Of a stretch of 64,000 bases of DNA, positions 39,340-47,921 are shown piece after piece. The position numbers and the translations under genes were made by a program. Numbering within the stretch: the first letter of the stretch is position 1; each line of letters starts with the position of its first letter. The notes below the pieces were generated by a model. It did no database searches and had not been told where the DNA came from. It saw only the letters and a program-made list of their open reading frames with translations. The DNA is from Oscillospiraceae bacterium (GTDB lineage: Bacteria > Bacillota > Clostridia > Oscillospirales > Acutalibacteraceae): assembly GCA_009784445.1 (NCBI GenBank), contig WRBQ01000004.1:1-64000 (forward strand), written 5' to 3'.

Positions 39340-39522
39340 TTGACAACGCGCATAAACTATGCTATACTAGCTTTATCTATTCGCAAGGAGCAGCCATGAA
39401 CCGTTCGTTTTACCGCTACTTTAGCTTCCCCTTTTGGGGGGCAAACTGCGGTATGCGCTAAAGTTTTTGGGCCACGCCCGAACTATCATGCAACCCGCAG
39501 TGTAAACTGCGGTATTTTTTTT
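39340..39522 (+). promoter_or_regulatory. Ribosome-mediated attenuator of the aro operon
   Basis: TTGACA (39340-39345), 17 nt, TATACT (39363-39368); leader ORF 39396-39461; antiterminator 39445-39456 with 39490-39501; terminator CCGCAGT-GTAA-ACTGCGG 39495-39512 then T8 (39515-39522). Confidence 0.85.
39396..39461 (+). CDS. Aromatic leader peptide MNRSFYRYFSFPFWGANCGMR
   Basis: AAGGAG RBS; 7 of 21 residues are Phe/Tyr/Trp. Confidence 0.85.
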   Translation: MNRSFYRYFSFPFWGANCGMR

Positions 39523-39533
39523 AGGAGGGCAAC

Positions 39534-40139
39534 ATGCACATTATCGCCATTCAGCACGCGCAAAGCGAGCAACACCTCAACGGCATGATTGGCGGCAGCA
39601 CCGAATGGCCGCTTACCCCACGCGGGCGGCGGCATGCACGCAAAATCGCGCGAGCATTGCGGCGCGAACTGGGTTATCGCCCCAACTACGTGCTGTATTC
39701 CTCCGACATGCAGCGTACCGCACAAACTGCCACGCCCATCGCCAAAGCACTGGGCCTAGAGATCCAATGGCTGCCCGACTTGCGCGAGCTCAAAGTGGGC
39801 AGTGCCGCAGGCAAAAGCAAAGCTTGGCTGAAAGAAAACGAAGCCCCGCGCGAGGGTGTGCCCTTTTTGGATCACCGCCCGCTGCCCGACGCCGAAACTT
39901 GGCGCGAAATGAGCCAGCGCGTGGCGGTTGCTCTTGCGCAGATTGAAGCCGCCGGCGAAAACGCCATCGTGGTGGCACACGGCGGCAGCTTAGGGCAGTT
40001 TGTGCAGCTATTTTTGCGCATCCCGCAAGAAGGCAGCTGGCCGCATGGGCTGGCAGGCGGCGTGCATAAGCTGGAAAAACGCGAAGAAAACGGCAACACC
40101 GTCTATACCTTACACAAATTCAACGAAATTCATTTTTAG
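39534..40139 (+). CDS. Histidine phosphatase (phosphoglycerate mutase-like) family protein
   Basis: IAIQHAQSEQH (variant RHG), TPRGRRHARKIAR, SSDMQRTAQTATPIA, VVAHGGSLGQF. Confidence 0.8.
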   Translation: MHIIAIQHAQSEQHLNGMIGGSTEWPLTPRGRRHARKIARALRRELGYRPNYVLYSSDMQRTAQTATPIAKALGLEIQWLPDLRELKVGSAAGKSKAWLKENEAPREGVPFLDHRPLPDAETWREMSQRVAVALAQIEAAGENAIVVAHGGSLGQFVQLFLRIPQEGSWPHGLAGGVHKLEKREENGNTVYTLHKFNEIHF

Positions 40140-40149
40140 GAGAACCACT

Positions 40150-41148
40150 ATGATCGTCGTACTTAAGCAAGATTACATGCAAGAACAGCTGGATATGCTG
40201 CTGCACTGGCTGCAAGAACAAGGCATTGCTGTGCACCAAAACCTGGGCGAACACTCCACCGTGCTGGGCCTAATTGGCGACACCGCCGGGCTCGACACCG
40301 ACCTGATTGAAGCGCAGGATTTCGTGGAAAAAGTCCAGCGTGTGCAGGAACCGTTCAAAAAAGCCAACCGCAAATTTCACCCGATTGATAGCGTGGTGGA
40401 CGTGGGCGGCGTGAAAATTGGCGCAGGCAATTTTGCGGTGATGGCTGGCCCATGCAGCGTGGAATCACCCGAGCAAGTGAGCGAAATTGCTGCGGCGGTG
40501 AAGGCTTCGGGCGCAAGCATATTGCGCGGCGGTGCCTTCAAACCGCGCACTTCGCCCTATGATTTTCAGGGCATGGGCAACGACGGCATTGAGCTACTGC
40601 TGAAGGCCAAAGCGCAAAATGGTCTGCCCATCGTGAGCGAAATCATGAATGTGAACCACTTGCCCGCTTTCGAGCACGTGGATTGCATTCAGGTGGGCGC
40701 ACGCAACATGCAAAACTTTGAGCTGCTGAAAGAACTCGGCCGCTGCAACAAGCCCATTTTGCTCAAGCGCGGCCTGGCCAACACCATTCAAGAGTGGCTG
40801 ATGAGCGCGGAGTACATCATGGCTGGCGGCAACCAGCAAGTGATTTTGTGCGAGCGCGGCATTCGTACCTTCGAAACTGCCACGCGCAACACCTTGGATC
40901 TTTCTGCCGTGTGCGTAATCAAGGAAAAATCTCACTTGCCCATCGTGGTTGATCCCAGCCATGCCACGGGCGTGTCACGCTATGTGAAGCAACTTGCGGT
41001 GGCCGCTGCTGCCGTGGGCGCCGACGGCCTGATGATTGAAGTGCACAATAACCCCGCCAAAGCCATGTGCGACGGCCCGCAATCGCTCACGCCCGCGCAG
41101 TTTGACGATGTGATGCGCGCCGTGAACCAAGTGAGGGCAGCTGTATGA
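40150..41148 (+). CDS. aroF: 3-deoxy-7-phosphoheptulonate synthase
   Basis: [69 protein letters not shown]. Confidence 0.97.
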
Positions 41149-42722
41149 GCCGAGGTCTGTACTGCTCGAATGAAGCAGTAAGCTTGGTGGAATACTGCTC
41201 CTGCGATGACCGCGCGCTGTATGATTGCTGGTTCGACCCGGAGACAAAACAGGGCTACAATGGTTGGACGCCCGCTGCAAGTTTTGAGGAATTTCAGCAG
41301 AACAACCAACAGCGCCACGAAGATTTTGTTAACGGCGAAAGCGAAGCACTCTTGTTTGCGATGATTCAATGCAATGCCACCAGCGAAATAGTTGGCGCGG
41401 TGAGCACCGCACCGGGGACTCCGCCCGAGTTTGAGCCCGACCTCAGCATACGCATTTTTGCGCCCTACCGCAGGCAGGGTTATGGCACGTCGGCCTTCGC
41501 GTTAGCGGCAAAGTACGCAACCGAAACGCTCGGCATCGCCGAACTGCATGCCGGGGCGTATCTCGACAACATCGGCAGCAAGAAAATGCTGGTGCGCTGC
41601 GGCTTTGTGCCCCTCGCGCTTTGCCCCGCAGAAAAGCATTATCTCACAGGTGAGGATGTGTTTCAGATGGATTATATTTACAAACCCATGCAAACCGTGC
41701 ATGTGCCCCTTGGTGACCGCGCCTACGACGTGATGATTGGCAGCGGTTTGCTGTCGCAATGCGGCGCGTTGATTCGTGACGCGCTAGCACCGCAAAAAGC
41801 GTTGATTATCACCGACGAAAACGTGCAAAATTGCGGCTATGTGGACAGCGCGCTGCAAAGTTTGCAAGCTGCGGGTGTAAAGGCTGAATGCTTTACACTG
41901 CGCGCCGGTGAAGAACACAAGATCCTCGCCAGCTACGAGGGGATTTTGCAAGCTTGCACGGCGTTCGGCCTCACCGGCAGCGATATTCTCGTCGCGCTGG
42001 GCGGCGGCGTGGTGGGCGATCTCACCGGATTTGCCGCCGCAAGTTATCGTCGCGGCATCGCCTATGTGCAAATTCCCACAACGCTTTTGGCCGCTGTGGA
42101 CTCCAGCGTGGGCGGCAAAACCGGGCTGAATTTACCCACCGGCAAGAATTTGGTGGGTGCGTTTTGGCAGCCCAGTTTGGTCATTTGCGACACCGAAACC
42201 CACGCCACCCTGCCACCTGCTGAGTACGCAAACGGCGTGGCAGAGTGCATCAAGTATGGCGTGTTGTGGGACGAGAGTCTGTTTAGCGCATTAGCGCAAG
42301 GCAGCAATGTGACAACAGAGCAAATCGCTCGCTGTGTCGCGTTGAAGCGCGACGTGGTTGTCGGCGATGAACGCGACACCGGTGCACGCCGCCTGCTGAA
42401 TTTGGGGCACACACTCGGCCACGCCATTGAGCAAGCTAGCAGCTACACTATACCCCACGGCGCAGCGGTTGGCATCGGCATGGCCTTGATGTGCAAGGCT
42501 TTTTGCCCGGCGATTTACGATAACGTGTGCGCCGCACTGCATGCGAATCACCTGCCCACCCACTGTGATTTCAGCGTGACGGAGCTGTTTGAGGCACTTT
42601 CGCGCGATAAAAAACGCATGGGTGACGACATCACTATTATCGTGTCGTTGCGCATTGGGCAGTGTGAATTGCGCACTCTTTCGCTTTCAAGCTTCAAAGC
42701 GTTGCTGGAGGAAAAGCTATGA
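41145..42722 (+). CDS. aroB: GNAT acetyltransferase / 3-dehydroquinate synthase fusion
   Basis: Residues 1 to ~181 GNAT-like (IRIFAPYRRQGYGTSAFALAAKYA...AYLDNIGSKKMLVRCGF); from ~182 AroB (LVALGGGVVGDLTGFAAASYRRGI, DSSVGGKTGLN, LNLGHTLGHAIE). Confidence 0.93.
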   Translation: MSRGLYCSNEAVSLVEYCSCDDRALYDCWFDPETKQGYNGWTPAASFEEFQQNNQQRHEDFVNGESEALLFAMIQCNATSEIVGAVSTAPGTPPEFEPDLSIRIFAPYRRQGYGTSAFALAAKYATETLGIAELHAGAYLDNIGSKKMLVRCGFVPLALCPAEKHYLTGEDVFQMDYIYKPMQTVHVPLGDRAYDVMIGSGLLSQCGALIRDALAPQKALIITDENVQNCGYVDSALQSLQAAGVKAECFTLRAGEEHKILASYEGILQACTAFGLTGSDILVALGGGVVGDLTGFAAASYRRGIAYVQIPTTLLAAVDSSVGGKTGLNLPTGKNLVGAFWQPSLVICDTETHATLPPAEYANGVAECIKYGVLWDESLFSALAQGSNVTTEQIARCVALKRDVVVGDERDTGARRLLNLGHTLGHAIEQASSYTIPHGAAVGIGMALMCKAFCPAIYDNVCAALHANHLPTHCDFSVTELFEALSRDKKRMGDDITIIVSLRIGQCELRTLSLSSFKALLEEKL

Positions 42723-43840
42723 CATTAACCCTGCATCCCGCGAAACTACAGGGCGAAATCGCCGCCATGCCGTCGAAATCCGACCTGCATCGGCTGATGA
42801 TTGCCGCCTGGCTGGCCGGGCAAGACATCACCACTTTGCCCATTATTTCCGACGACATTGCCGCCACGCGTGACTGCCTGCTGGCTGGCAACGGTGTGCT
42901 CAACTGCCGCGAAAGTGGCTCTACACTGCGGTTTTTGCTGCCTGTGATGGCAGCCATCGGCGGCACATTCACCTTCACCGGCGAGGGCCGCTTGCCCGAA
43001 CGTCCGCTTGAACCACTGCTGACTTTACTGCGCCAACACGGCATTACGATAACAAGCGAAACGCTGCCGCTGACCATCAGCGGGCAGCTGCAACCCGGCA
43101 CATTCACCCTGCCTGGCAACATCAGCTCGCAGTATATCACAGGGCTGCTGTTTGCGCTGCCGCTGCTGCCCGGCGACAGTGAGATTGTCCTCACATCGCC
43201 GCTAGAGTCCGCAGGTTATGTGGACATGACGGTGCGCACACTAGAAAAGTTTGGCGTTTTCGTTGAACCAAGCCAAATTGGTTGGTTCATTCCAAGCACT
43301 CAACGTTACAAGCCTGCCACATCGTTCGCTCCCGAAGGCGATTGGTCTAACGCAGCGTTTTGGCTGGCGGCAGGCGTAAACATTGTAGAACTTGACAAAA
43401 ATTCCGCCCAGCCAGACCGAGAAATCATGCAATTGCTATCTTCTTGCGACCCCATGAACGCCGCACGATGCCCTGACCTCGTGCCGATCATGGCGATTTA
43501 CGCCGCGGTGCACTGCCCGCACTACGAAATTCGCAACGCCGCGCGGCTTCGCATCAAAGAAAGCGACCGCTTGGCGGCCATGCTCACCAATCTTGAGTTG
43601 CTTGGCGCAGACGTTGCGCCCTTGGGCGACGACGGCATGACCATCCGCGGTGCAAAACCATTGCCTGGCGGCGCAACGATAAACAGCTTTGGCGACCATC
43701 GCATTGCCATGGCCATGGCGATTGCCGCGCTGCATTGCCAACAGCCCATCACACTGACCAACGCGGAGGTTGTGGCGAAATCCTACCCCGACTTTTGGGC
43801 AGATTACAAGCGATTAGGAGGGATTGCGCATGGCCTCTAG
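42719..43840 (+). CDS. aroA: 3-phosphoshikimate 1-carboxyvinyltransferase (EPSP synthase)
   Basis: MPSKSDLHRLMIAAWLAG, ESGSTLRFLLPV, RIKESDRLAAM, GDHRIAMAMAIAAL. Confidence 0.96.
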   Translation: MTLTLHPAKLQGEIAAMPSKSDLHRLMIAAWLAGQDITTLPIISDDIAATRDCLLAGNGVLNCRESGSTLRFLLPVMAAIGGTFTFTGEGRLPERPLEPLLTLLRQHGITITSETLPLTISGQLQPGTFTLPGNISSQYITGLLFALPLLPGDSEIVLTSPLESAGYVDMTVRTLEKFGVFVEPSQIGWFIPSTQRYKPATSFAPEGDWSNAAFWLAAGVNIVELDKNSAQPDREIMQLLSSCDPMNAARCPDLVPIMAIYAAVHCPHYEIRNAARLRIKESDRLAAMLTNLELLGADVAPLGDDGMTIRGAKPLPGGATINSFGDHRIAMAMAIAALHCQQPITLTNAEVVAKSYPDFWADYKRLGGIAHGL

Positions 43841-44798
43841 CTTTGGTGAACGCGTGAAAATCACCGTGTTTGGGCAGTCGCACTCGTCTGCCATTGGCGC
43901 AGTGATTGACGGCCTGCCTGCGGGCGAAAGCCTTGATATGCAAGCGATTTCTGCCTTCATGGCACGCCGCGCACCCGGCCGTAACCCCGGCGATACCGCC
44001 CGCCGCGAGCCCGATATTCCTCGCATTCTCAGCGGCCTAGTGAACAACACCACCTGCGGCGCGCCCCTGTGCGCCATCATCGAAAACACCGATACCCGCT
44101 CGCAGGATTATGATGCTCTGCGCAATATTCCGCGCCCGGGGCACGCCGATTTCCCCATCCACGTCAAACACAACGGCCACGCCGATAAACGCGGCGGCGG
44201 GCACACCTCCGGGCGGTTGACTGCTCCACTTTGTTTTGCCGGTGCTGTTTGTGCACAAATTTTGGCGAAACATGGCATCGGAATTTGTGCAACCATCACA
44301 AAAATCGGCGACATCGAAGCCGCAAAAGCCGCAGGCGACTCCGTTGGCGGCATCATCGAATGTACCGCAACCGGTCTGCCGACAGGCTTGGGAGAACCCA
44401 TGTTTGACGGCGTGGAAAACCGACTAGCCGCTGCGTTGTTTGGCATTCCTGCCGTGCGCGGCGTGGAATTTGGCGCAGGATTTGCCGCGGCGGCTACGCA
44501 AGGTTCACAAAATAATGACGCATATTTTGTGCAAGATGGCGAAATTCGCAGCCGCACAAACCATCACGGCGGCGTGCTGGGCGGGCTGACCACCGGCATG
44601 CCTTTAGTTTTGCGTGTGGCCATCAAGCCAACGCCGTCGATATCACTGCCGCAGGAAAGCGTGAACTTAGCCACAGGCGAAAGCGAAGAATTGCGCATCA
44701 GCGGGCGGCACGACGCCTGCATTGTGCCCCGCGCCGTGCCGGTGGTGGAGGCCGTTGTGGCCTGCGTACTGCTGGATTTCATGGAGGTTGCACGATGA
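43830..44798 (+). CDS. aroC: Chorismate synthase
   Basis: FGERVKITVFGQSHSSAIGAVIDGLPAGE, GGGHTSGRLTAPLCFAGAV, HHGGVLGGLTTGMPL. Confidence 0.97.
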   Translation: MASSFGERVKITVFGQSHSSAIGAVIDGLPAGESLDMQAISAFMARRAPGRNPGDTARREPDIPRILSGLVNNTTCGAPLCAIIENTDTRSQDYDALRNIPRPGHADFPIHVKHNGHADKRGGGHTSGRLTAPLCFAGAVCAQILAKHGIGICATITKIGDIEAAKAAGDSVGGIIECTATGLPTGLGEPMFDGVENRLAAALFGIPAVRGVEFGAGFAAAATQGSQNNDAYFVQDGEIRSRTNHHGGVLGGLTTGMPLVLRVAIKPTPSISLPQESVNLATGESEELRISGRHDACIVPRAVPVVEAVVACVLLDFMEVAR

Positions 44799-45529
44799 GC
44801 AACACTTATGATACCGCCGCAAATTTCTACGATTTAGGCTATCAATATCAGGGCGATGTGCCGTTTTTCCAGCGTTATGCACAAAACGGGCCTGTGCTCG
44901 AGCTCGCCTGCGGCACCGGGCGCGCGAGCATCCCCCTCGCCGAAAGCGGCTTGCGCGTGCATGGGCTAGATTTATCGCCAAGCATGCTGCAAGCGTTTCG
45001 CGCAAAGCTGACGAAGCTGCCCGAAGACGTCCGGCAACGCATCACCATCACGCAGGGTAACATGGCAAGCTTCGATCTGGGCGAGAAATTTCCGCTGATT
45101 ATCATCCCCTGCCGCGCGTTTCAGGCGCTGACGGAGGACGCGGATATCACAGGCTGTTTGCAAGCCGCGAAGAATCATCTTGCAAAAGATGGGCGTTTCA
45201 TCGTCAACTGCTTTGTGCCGAAAAAGCGCATGCGGCACTGGTGCTACCCCGTGCGAATCGACTGGCAGCGCGATGGCGTGACCTGCAAAAGCCTTGGCGA
45301 GCGCGTTGACACAAAGCGGCAGATTATCTATGTGGTGATGATCTATGAACACGGCGAAAACCAGCGCATTGAAGAGCCACTTGAGCTTAGATATTACTAC
45401 CCAAGGCAGCTGCGCAAACTCTTGCGTGATGCAGGTTTTCGCATTGTTGAACGGTACGGCGATTACGACGACGGAAAGATAAAACGCCATGGTGGCGAGC
45501 AAATTTATGTATGTGAGGTAGCCCAATGA
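44795..45529 (+). CDS. Class I SAM-dependent methyltransferase
   Basis: VLELACGTGRASIPLAESGLRVHGLDLSPSML; inside aro operon. Confidence 0.88.
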   Translation: MSNTYDTAANFYDLGYQYQGDVPFFQRYAQNGPVLELACGTGRASIPLAESGLRVHGLDLSPSMLQAFRAKLTKLPEDVRQRITITQGNMASFDLGEKFPLIIIPCRAFQALTEDADITGCLQAAKNHLAKDGRFIVNCFVPKKRMRHWCYPVRIDWQRDGVTCKSLGERVDTKRQIIYVVMIYEHGENQRIEEPLELRYYYPRQLRKLLRDAGFRIVERYGDYDDGKIKRHGGEQIYVCEVAQ

Positions 45530-46719
45530 ACTTAGAGAATTTACGCGCAGAAATTGACCGCGTGGACGACGCCCTTGCCCCTCTGCTGGCACAGCGCATG
45601 GAGCTTGCATCGCAGGTGGCGCAGGCAAAAATGGCCAACGACGAGCAAGTGCACCACCCTGCGCGCGAGCAAGAAGTGTTACAGCGCATTTGCAAGAACG
45701 CACCTGATCACTTGCAACAACCGCTCAACATGATTTATCGCACGGTGTTTTTGGCCAACCGTGCACGCCAACATCGGCTGATGGTTGAGGCCGAAGAAAC
45801 CTCGCCGTTGCGCCAGCAATTGACAGCGGCACTTGAGCGCGGGCAAGGTAACCCATGGCCGGTGGGTGCAAGCGTGGCCTGCCAAGGCGTGGAGGGCGCG
45901 TTTTCGCACATTGCTGCGCGAAACATGTTTGACCAACCGCGCATTCTCAGCATGCACGAGTTCGAGATGGTTTTCCGCGCCGTGGAGCAAGGTCTATGCA
46001 ACTTCGGTGTGCTGCCCATTGAAAACACAACGTATGGCAGCGTCATGCGCGTTTACGACCTGCTGCGCAAGCACAAGTGCTCCATCGTGCGCGCCATTCG
46101 CCTGCCGATTCGCCACTGTTTGCTCAGCAATGAGCGCTTCCTCAAAGATATCACCGAGATTTGGTCGCACGAGCAAGCCTTGCGCCAGTGCGACAGCTTC
46201 ATTCAAAAGCTTGGCGACCGCGTCACCACCCACGTGTGCGACAACACCGCCATTGCCGCCAAGCGCGCCGCGCAAGAAGATAAACCCGGCGTGGCCGTCA
46301 TCTCCAGCGAAGAATGCGCCGATCTTTACGGTCTCAATGTGCTCAAGCAAGAAATCCAGGATCGCAGCGACAACCAAACCCGCTTCATCTGCATCACCAA
46401 GCAAGCCATGATTCCTCCGTGTGCCAACAAAAGCAGCGTGCTCATTTCACTGCCGCACCATGCAGGCACACTGGCCGAGATTCTGCAACTGCTTGCCAGC
46501 ATGGAAATCAATCTCACCAAGCTAACAAACCTGCCCGTGCTGGGCAACGCGCTTGATGCCGTGTTTTACTTGGACTTGGAGTGCGACGCCACCTCGCCCA
46601 ACTATCCCATCATGATTGAAAAACTCGCGCGGCACTGCGAAACCCTAGATGTGTTGGGCAGCTATGAGGAGATTACAACGCCTTGCAACGAGAGGACTGA
46701 ACCATGCAGTTTGGCTTAA
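45526..46719 (+). CDS. pheA: Bifunctional chorismate mutase / prephenate dehydratase
   Basis: N-terminal CM (LRAEIDRVDDALAPLLAQRMELASQVAQAK), PDT (VACQGVEGAFSHIAA, LPIENTTYGSVMRVYDLL), C-terminal ACT domain. Confidence 0.95.
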   Translation: MNLENLRAEIDRVDDALAPLLAQRMELASQVAQAKMANDEQVHHPAREQEVLQRICKNAPDHLQQPLNMIYRTVFLANRARQHRLMVEAEETSPLRQQLTAALERGQGNPWPVGASVACQGVEGAFSHIAARNMFDQPRILSMHEFEMVFRAVEQGLCNFGVLPIENTTYGSVMRVYDLLRKHKCSIVRAIRLPIRHCLLSNERFLKDITEIWSHEQALRQCDSFIQKLGDRVTTHVCDNTAIAAKRAAQEDKPGVAVISSEECADLYGLNVLKQEIQDRSDNQTRFICITKQAMIPPCANKSSVLISLPHHAGTLAEILQLLASMEINLTKLTNLPVLGNALDAVFYLDLECDATSPNYPIMIEKLARHCETLDVLGSYEEITTPCNERTEPCSLA

Positions 46720-47921
46720 TTGGAAGGCATTTGGGCCACAGCTATTCCCCCGAAATTCACAAACGCCTGCACGGGCATGATTATCAACTTGTGCCCATGG
46801 AGCCGCAGCAACTACCGGCCTTTTTTGCGCGGCGCGATTTTGCGGGCATCAATGTCACCATTCCCTACAAAGTCGAGGCGTTCCATGCTTGCGATGCACT
46901 GGGCGAAACCGCCCGTCGCGCAGGCTGCGTGAACACCATCGTCAAGCGCCCCGACGGCACGCTGTTTGGTGACAACACCGACCTTGCAGGCTTTCAGTTC
47001 ATGCTGCGCCGTGCGGGCATTGATCTCACCGGCAAGCATGTGCTGATTTTAGGCGCAGGCGGTGCTTCGCAAACCGTGCAGCTGGCCTGCGCAGACGCCC
47101 AAGCAGCAAGTGTCACCATTGCCGACAAAGACGACAGCAAGCATTGCCCGCAGGCCGAAGTTCTCATCAATACCTCGCCTGTGGGCATGTATCCGCATGC
47201 GGACAACACCCCCGTGGACCTGCGTGACTACCCTAACTTGCGCGCCGTGGCCGACCTCATTTACAACCCCTCACGCACGCGCCTTCTTCAGCAAGCTGAA
47301 AAACTGGGGTTAGTATGCATCAACGGCCTAAGCATGCTGGTGGCGCAAGCCGCCGCCGCCGCTGAGCTATTTTTGCAGCAGAAAATCGCCGACGAACATG
47401 CCGCACAGGTGCTGCATTCGCTCAACGCCGACCTGCAAAACTGGGTGCTGGTGGGCATGCCCGGCTGCGGAAAATCCACTATTGGGCTTGATCTTGCACA
47501 GCGCAGCGGCCGCAGTTTTGTAGACATTGACCATGAAATAGCGCAGCGCACCGGCACAACCCCTGCCGATATCATCCGGCAACAAGGCGAACCCGCCTTT
47601 CGTGACATCGAAAGCCAGGTGATCACAGACCTCAGCGCGCAAACCGGTTTGGTCATCGCCACCGGCGGCGGTGCCGTGCTGCGTGAAAGCAACCGTCAAG
47701 CCCTGCGGCAAAACGCCCGCGTGTTGTGGATTCAACGCGCCAACGCCAATCTCGCCCGTGACGGCCGCCCACTTTCGGTTGACCTAGATGATTTATATCG
47801 CACACGCGAGCCCGCCTACCAAGATGCCGCCGACGTGGCAATCACCCACAACGAAGACTGGGACGCCGTCAAACAAGCCGCTTGGGCTGCATTTTTGTCG
47901 CCTTGCTGTGCTTTACGATAG
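46704..47921 (+). CDS. aroE-aroK: Shikimate dehydrogenase / shikimate kinase fusion
   Basis: AroE: LIGRHLGHSYSPEIHK, NVTIPYK, GDNTD, LGAGGASQT; AroK: VLVGMPGCGKSTIGLDLAQRSGRSFVDIDHEI, GGGAVLRESNRQAL. Confidence 0.95.
   Translation: MQFGLIGRHLGHSYSPEIHKRLHGHDYQLVPMEPQQLPAFFARRDFAGINVTIPYKVEAFHACDALGETARRAGCVNTIVKRPDGTLFGDNTDLAGFQFMLRRAGIDLTGKHVLILGAGGASQTVQLACADAQAASVTIADKDDSKHCPQAEVLINTSPVGMYPHADNTPVDLRDYPNLRAVADLIYNPSRTRLLQQAEKLGLVCINGLSMLVAQAAAAAELFLQQKIADEHAAQVLHSLNADLQNWVLVGMPGCGKSTIGLDLAQRSGRSFVDIDHEIAQRTGTTPADIIRQQGEPAFRDIESQVITDLSAQTGLVIATGGGAVLRESNRQALRQNARVLWIQRANANLARDGRPLSVDLDDLYRTREPAYQDAADVAITHNEDWDAVKQAAWAAFLSPCCALR

Follow-up and report, generated by a model that had tools for sequence, protein, structure and literature searches.

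Textbook regulation of aromatic amino acid synthesis in Bacillota is based on T-boxes and TRAP. The E. coli leaders trpL and pheL consist of a leader ORF with clustered codons for the product of the pathway, of pairings 1:2, 2:3 and 3:4 that exclude one another, and of a terminator located before the structural genes. The initial annotation of the locus described here had characterized this type of attenuation as best known from proteobacteria, which has to be qualified, because there are earlier proposals of leader-peptide regulators in Bacillota, including one on aroF (PMC8632094, PMC6429828, PMC2965389). The aromatic uORF uORFC-13-1 of Acholeplasma has a promoter, an RBS and a terminator, and is found exclusively ahead of aroF; its 24 representatives stem from Acholeplasma and unassigned environmental sequences only, and they contain at least one Phe codon (PMC8632094). 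Two candidate shikimate uORFs rich in Phe and Tyr, with predicted uORF regulation, are presented in Fig. 6b of PMC6429828. His leader peptides on hisS/hisZ in Bacilli exemplify leader-peptide attenuation replacing T-boxes in Firmicutes (PMC2965389).

The locus lies in a window of 64,000 nt, i.e. the whole stretch of DNA that was analysed, from an assembly of 2.0 Mb in 61 contigs that is 86% complete. Among named relatives, Oscillospiraceae bacterium isolate Co191P1bin34 is the closest, with an AroF identity of 97%. Like the proteobacterial trp and phe leaders, the element has a leader ORF with clustered codons, exclusive 1:2, 2:3 and 3:4 pairings, and a terminator before the structural genes. 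In contrast to them, it is predicted to sense Phe and Tyr jointly, it heads the whole common pathway plus pheA, it occurs in Clostridia, and it has no Rfam match. Compared with uORFC-13-1 by description only, the Clostridia element has runs of F/Y codons, a mapped antiterminator, and a distribution over many Clostridia. The codons and the pathway are like those of the shikimate uORFs of PMC6429828 as far as the figure legend describes them, and these uORFs and the Clostridia leaders may belong to one family. Leader-peptide attenuation in Firmicutes is also common to the His leaders of Bacilli, but the amino acid, the genes and the class differ. No description of an aroF leader family in Clostridia was found in the literature searched, which mostly excluded subscription journals. 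In view of the Acholeplasma and shikimate uORF precedents, the element is new in its breadth and its details but not in its kind.

Elements of the leader region and the operon behind it

The promoter, the AAGGAG motif, the aromatic leader ORF, and the terminator with its T8 tract had all been reported in the initial annotation and were recovered base for base at the same positions (Table 1). The duplication of the terminator 3′ arm inside the leader ORF was likewise confirmed; the two copies of the 12-nt sequence AAACTGCGGTAT are located at 39443-39454 and 39504-39515. The leader ORF has six F/Y codons within residues 5-13, and the intrinsic terminator falls between this ORF and the first structural gene of the window. 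The pairing of segments 1 and 2 is an element that the initial annotation had not noticed. Segment 1 sits inside Tyr-Arg codons of the leader, and its complement GCGGUA (39448-39453) is an exact match. Because UACCGC pairs with segment 2, the four-segment layout of the trp type is complete.

Table 1. Positions of the leader elements and of the genes behind them in the window
Feature	Position	Strand	Remarks
Promoter, sigma-70-type	39340-39368	+	TTGACA (39340-39345), spacer of 17 nt, TATACT (39363-39368); 11 of 12 consensus positions; extended −10 (TGcTATACT), i.e. TG precedes the −10
Shine-Dalgarno sequence of the leader ORF	39385-39390	+	AAGGAG, 5 nt ahead of the ATG
Leader peptide ORF	39396-39461	+	MNRSFYRYFSFPFWGANCGMR, 21 codons; ATG at 39396, TAA at 39459-39461; F5, Y6, Y8, F9, F11, F13, W14
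Segment 1	39411-39416	+	UACCGC; complementary to GCGGUA of segment 2
Segment 2	39443-39456	+	AAACUGCGGUAUGC; 5′ side of the antiterminator; copies the 3′ arm of the terminator
Segment 3	39490-39501	+	GCAACCCGCAGU; common to antiterminator and terminator
Intrinsic terminator	39495-39522	+	stem CCGCAGT-GTAA-ACTGCGG (39495-39512), then TA and T8; segment 4 is 39506-39512
Histidine phosphatase gene	39534-40139	+	PF00300; the first gene to follow the attenuator; inserted ahead of aroF
aroF	40150-41148	+	DAHP synthase with ferredoxin-like regulatory domain (PF00793, PF18152); similar to the solved DAHP synthases 4grs, 1rzm and 3pg9
GNAT-aroB, aroA, aroC, methyltransferase gene, pheA, aroE-aroK	41145-47921	+	overlapping ORFs; pheA encodes chorismate mutase-prephenate dehydratase; aroE-aroK is a fusion

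The ORFs overlap from aroF onward, and a scan of the + strand of the operon revealed neither a second strong promoter nor a strong terminator. For these reasons, the region from the attenuator through aroE-aroK is likely one operon, which would give rise to a single transcript. The genes proposed to be controlled in the initial annotation, i.e. aroF-aroB-aroA-aroC-pheA-aroEK, are all present, but the list was incomplete: the histidine phosphatase gene precedes aroF, aroB carries a fused GNAT domain, and the operon also includes a methyltransferase gene.

Pairings in the leader RNA and their conservation

By its folding energy, the single sequence stands out only slightly: z is about −1.8 to −2.0, 5-10 out of 200 shuffles fold equally well, and the test of the duplex versus shuffles at this single locus was not significant (p = 0.14). 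As these statistics are weak, the judgement must rest on relatives.

Folding of the window sequence gave a probability of 0.98 for the 1:2 hairpin prior to transcription of segment 3. The ribosome was modelled as an unpaired block on the leader RNA. With the A site at F5, Y6, Y8, F9 or F11, the modelled probability of the antiterminator is 0.97-0.98 before segment 4 exists; the respective values are 0.85 for F13 and 0.37 for W14. With the ribosome at the leader stop, the model yields 0.00 for the antiterminator and 0.98 for the terminator in the full RNA. In the folding model the antiterminator thus excludes the terminator, and its 5′ side can be covered by a ribosome at the stop and is free when the ribosome stalls at the control codons. 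In equilibrium folds of the full-length RNA the terminator and the antiterminator are close in energy, so that the switch would depend on the kinetics of co-transcriptional folding. Unlike in the trp operon, antitermination is favoured by the model when no ribosome is present and segment 4 does not yet exist.

For the comparison with relatives, 219 aroF loci including that of the window were analysed, 80 from species-representative contigs and the others found by searching whole genomes of relatives and of the phylum. A purpose-made detector required an SD-like sequence, a short ORF with at least four F/Y/W per eight residues, and an intrinsic terminator downstream. It was positive ahead of aroF in 107 of the 219 loci, compared to 3 of 615 other genes on the same contigs (Fisher p about 2e-68, a value for genomes that are not independent). 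Two of the three positive controls head pheA-aroF operons (L063 and L099), in which the aromatic leader and the terminator precede pheA, not aroF, and lie about 1.1-1.3 kb upstream of aroF. Relaxed inspection yielded about 15 further loci with a leader; since the strict detector misses some true leaders, the fraction of 107/219 is a lower bound. Among distant AroF proteins of the phylum sample, mostly with 52-59% identity, only 7 of 60 loci have a leader, and therefore the leader is associated with a subgroup of AroF operons. The labels in the record titles of leader-bearing loci include Oscillospiraceae, Lachnospiraceae and Clostridia, plus single assemblies labelled Treponema and Coriobacteriales. 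A similarity search of plasmids retrieved nothing but distant aroF.

Ten relatives of the same genus have enough upstream sequence, and each of these has a promoter, an SD, a leader and a terminator arranged as in the window. In the two closest, the peptide shows few changes (MNRSFYRYFSFPYWGANCGMR in L004 and MNRSFTRYFSFPVWGASCGMR in L003/L032), one of which is F13 to Y in L004, so that an aromatic residue is retained. SD sites of the GGAG type are kept in relatives. Alignment within the genus shows 96% pairing of the terminator stem, and two of its eight base pairs have undergone compensatory changes. Beyond the genus, the leaders align poorly.

The test of the duplex versus shuffles was also weak when applied to each locus (mean z −0.8; p ≤ 0.05 in 17% of the loci) and was therefore replaced by a swap test, in which composition and shared motifs are controlled for. 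For 92 non-redundant elements (<70% alike) from related genomes, the stretch after the aromatic codons was paired with the terminator 5′ arm, and the true pairs were compared to pairs across loci. The true pairs total −889.8 kcal/mol, versus a mean of −798.0 (sd 19.0) for the permuted ones (z = −4.8, n = 92). The total is below all 10,000 permutations, and a Wilcoxon test on the ranks gave p = 0.001. Hence, the complementarity of a leader segment is higher to the terminator of its own locus than to terminators from elsewhere; the 2:3 pair of the window is among the top 3.3%. L084 (CCGAUUGUCCG and CGGACAAUCG) and L121 (UACGGGUA and UACCCGUA) are examples of pairs in which the two sides both deviate from the common core GCUGC/GCAG. 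The motif UUUGCUG was found in the spacer of 23 of the 92 elements, compared to 0.8 expected from shuffles.

The relatives thus share the promoter, the leader ORF with its F/Y codons, and the terminator, whose stem shows compensatory changes, and the 2:3 complementarity is specific for each locus. These observations support ribosome-mediated attenuation, which had been proposed in the initial annotation together with a comparison of leaders and pairings in relatives.

Proposed mechanism and alternative explanations

Judged by its sequence, the aroF element is a ribosome-mediated attenuator and would work like one. We assign a probability of about 0.88 to the reading that it is a classical attenuator of the trp/phe type, which would sense charged tRNA-Phe and tRNA-Tyr and control the operon that starts at 39534. 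RNA polymerase would start near 39375, and a ribosome would begin to translate the leader. When Phe-tRNA or Tyr-tRNA is short, the ribosome would stall at F5-F11 and cover segment 1, leaving positions 39445-39456 of segment 2 free. Segment 2 could then capture segment 3 before segment 4 is made, so that no terminator would form and the operon would be read. When both tRNAs are plentiful, the ribosome would reach the stop (39459) and cover segment 2, which would allow 3:4 pairing and termination in the U tract. Translation of a tiny Phe/Tyr-rich peptide would thus very probably decide whether the operon is on or off in this gut Clostridia bacterium.

The initial annotation had assumed a sensor for all three aromatic amino acids. 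In the densest eight residues of the 92 non-redundant leaders, F accounts for 36.5%, Y for 35.5%, and W for 1.5%, and the three residues occur in 91, 86, and 11 leaders, respectively. Based on this composition and on the antiterminator probabilities of the ribosome-block model, the signals are plausibly Phe and Tyr, and the Trp codon is misplaced for sensing. A role in Trp sensing was rejected, as W is rare in the leaders and W14 is too near to segment 2.

The leader could alternatively be a nascent-chain arrest peptide similar to TnaC, which would respond to free Phe or Tyr or to another ligand, with the stall position, rather than uncharged tRNA, setting the fold. The leaders (median 31 aa) are long enough, and enough residues follow the aromatic stretch, for an effect in the exit tunnel. 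However, the 92 leaders conserve the density of F/Y codons in varying order, with no fixed motif and no fixed distance to the stop, and clusters of codons for the products of the pathway itself mark attenuators that sense tRNA, which makes an arrest peptide improbable. We regard as still less probable a general translation sensor, in which any slow-down, an antibiotic or a growth-rate signal would act and the aromatic codons would be incidental. Any stall that frees segment 2 would indeed antiterminate in the model, but F and Y together make up 72% of the dense window, other triples of residues are far rarer in the same detector (1-41 of the 219 loci, compared to 107), and the leaders are linked to aroF or pheA operons.

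The least credible explanation is a chance arrangement, or a terminator under the control of another factor such as a T-box or a TRAP-like protein, with an unused leader ORF. T-boxes are common in Bacillota, one is present ahead of trpE in the same genome, and the weak folding statistics of the single sequence would also be compatible with this explanation. However, the T-box covariance model (RF00230) had no match in the window, and no Rfam family reached its gathering score in the window and 36 related loci (20 with leaders, 16 detector-negative), with the exception of three tRNA genes. Chance is excluded by conservation and the swap test.

The trp branch and additional genes of the operon

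Sensing of Phe and Tyr would fit the pathway, since the operon makes chorismate and Phe and the trp operon has its own T-box. The sole T-box match in the genome (G000:C2:63760-63991, L141) is located directly ahead of trpE and scores 73.5 bits, which is below the Rfam cut-off of 93. According to the alignment, its specifier is UGG (Trp), the specifier position being our own reading. The T-box and, as predicted, the aroF attenuator both sense tRNA charging to control genes for aromatic amino acids; in contrast to the attenuator, the T-box binds the tRNA directly, has no leader peptide, and serves the Trp branch only. T-boxes seem to be rare in this Bacillota genome. No leader peptides were seen in the retrieved flanks of hisG, a leuA-like gene and tyrA in the same genome, and a genome-wide switch to leader peptides, which was considered, is unsupported by these flanks. 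pheT was sought in the incomplete MAG and not found.

It appears reasonably probable that a large, uncatalogued family of dual Phe and Tyr attenuators is the usual control of chorismate/Phe operons in a broad group of Clostridia, beside the Trp T-box of the trp operon. If this is true, the charging of tRNAs is monitored by two unrelated RNA mechanisms for a single branched pathway within the same genome. The leader-peptide solution would head the common aromatic pathway in many Clostridia, at least one genome of which also has a Trp T-box, and one can now test what makes a lineage retain a T-box for a single branch but use a leader peptide for the trunk. The element would represent a directly usable Phe/Tyr-responsive switch, and it would provide an annotation rule for the many genomes in which such leader ORFs lack annotation.

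As the phosphatase gene lies between the attenuator and aroF, it would be the first gene under control. The insertion is also present in G001 (protein 95.5% identical) and is lineage-restricted among the relatives examined; at G003/L032, where AroF is 97% identical, the phosphatase gene is absent and the attenuator is directly ahead of aroF. The gene looks like a recent insertion that would thereby have been placed under aromatic attenuation. AroB (3-dehydroquinate synthase; 41145-42722) carries the GNAT acetyltransferase domain as an in-frame N-terminal fusion, which is confined to the three closest genomes among 84 loci with aroB. The additional gene between aroC and pheA (44795-45529) encodes a class I methyltransferase and is shared, among the relatives examined, by L032 only.
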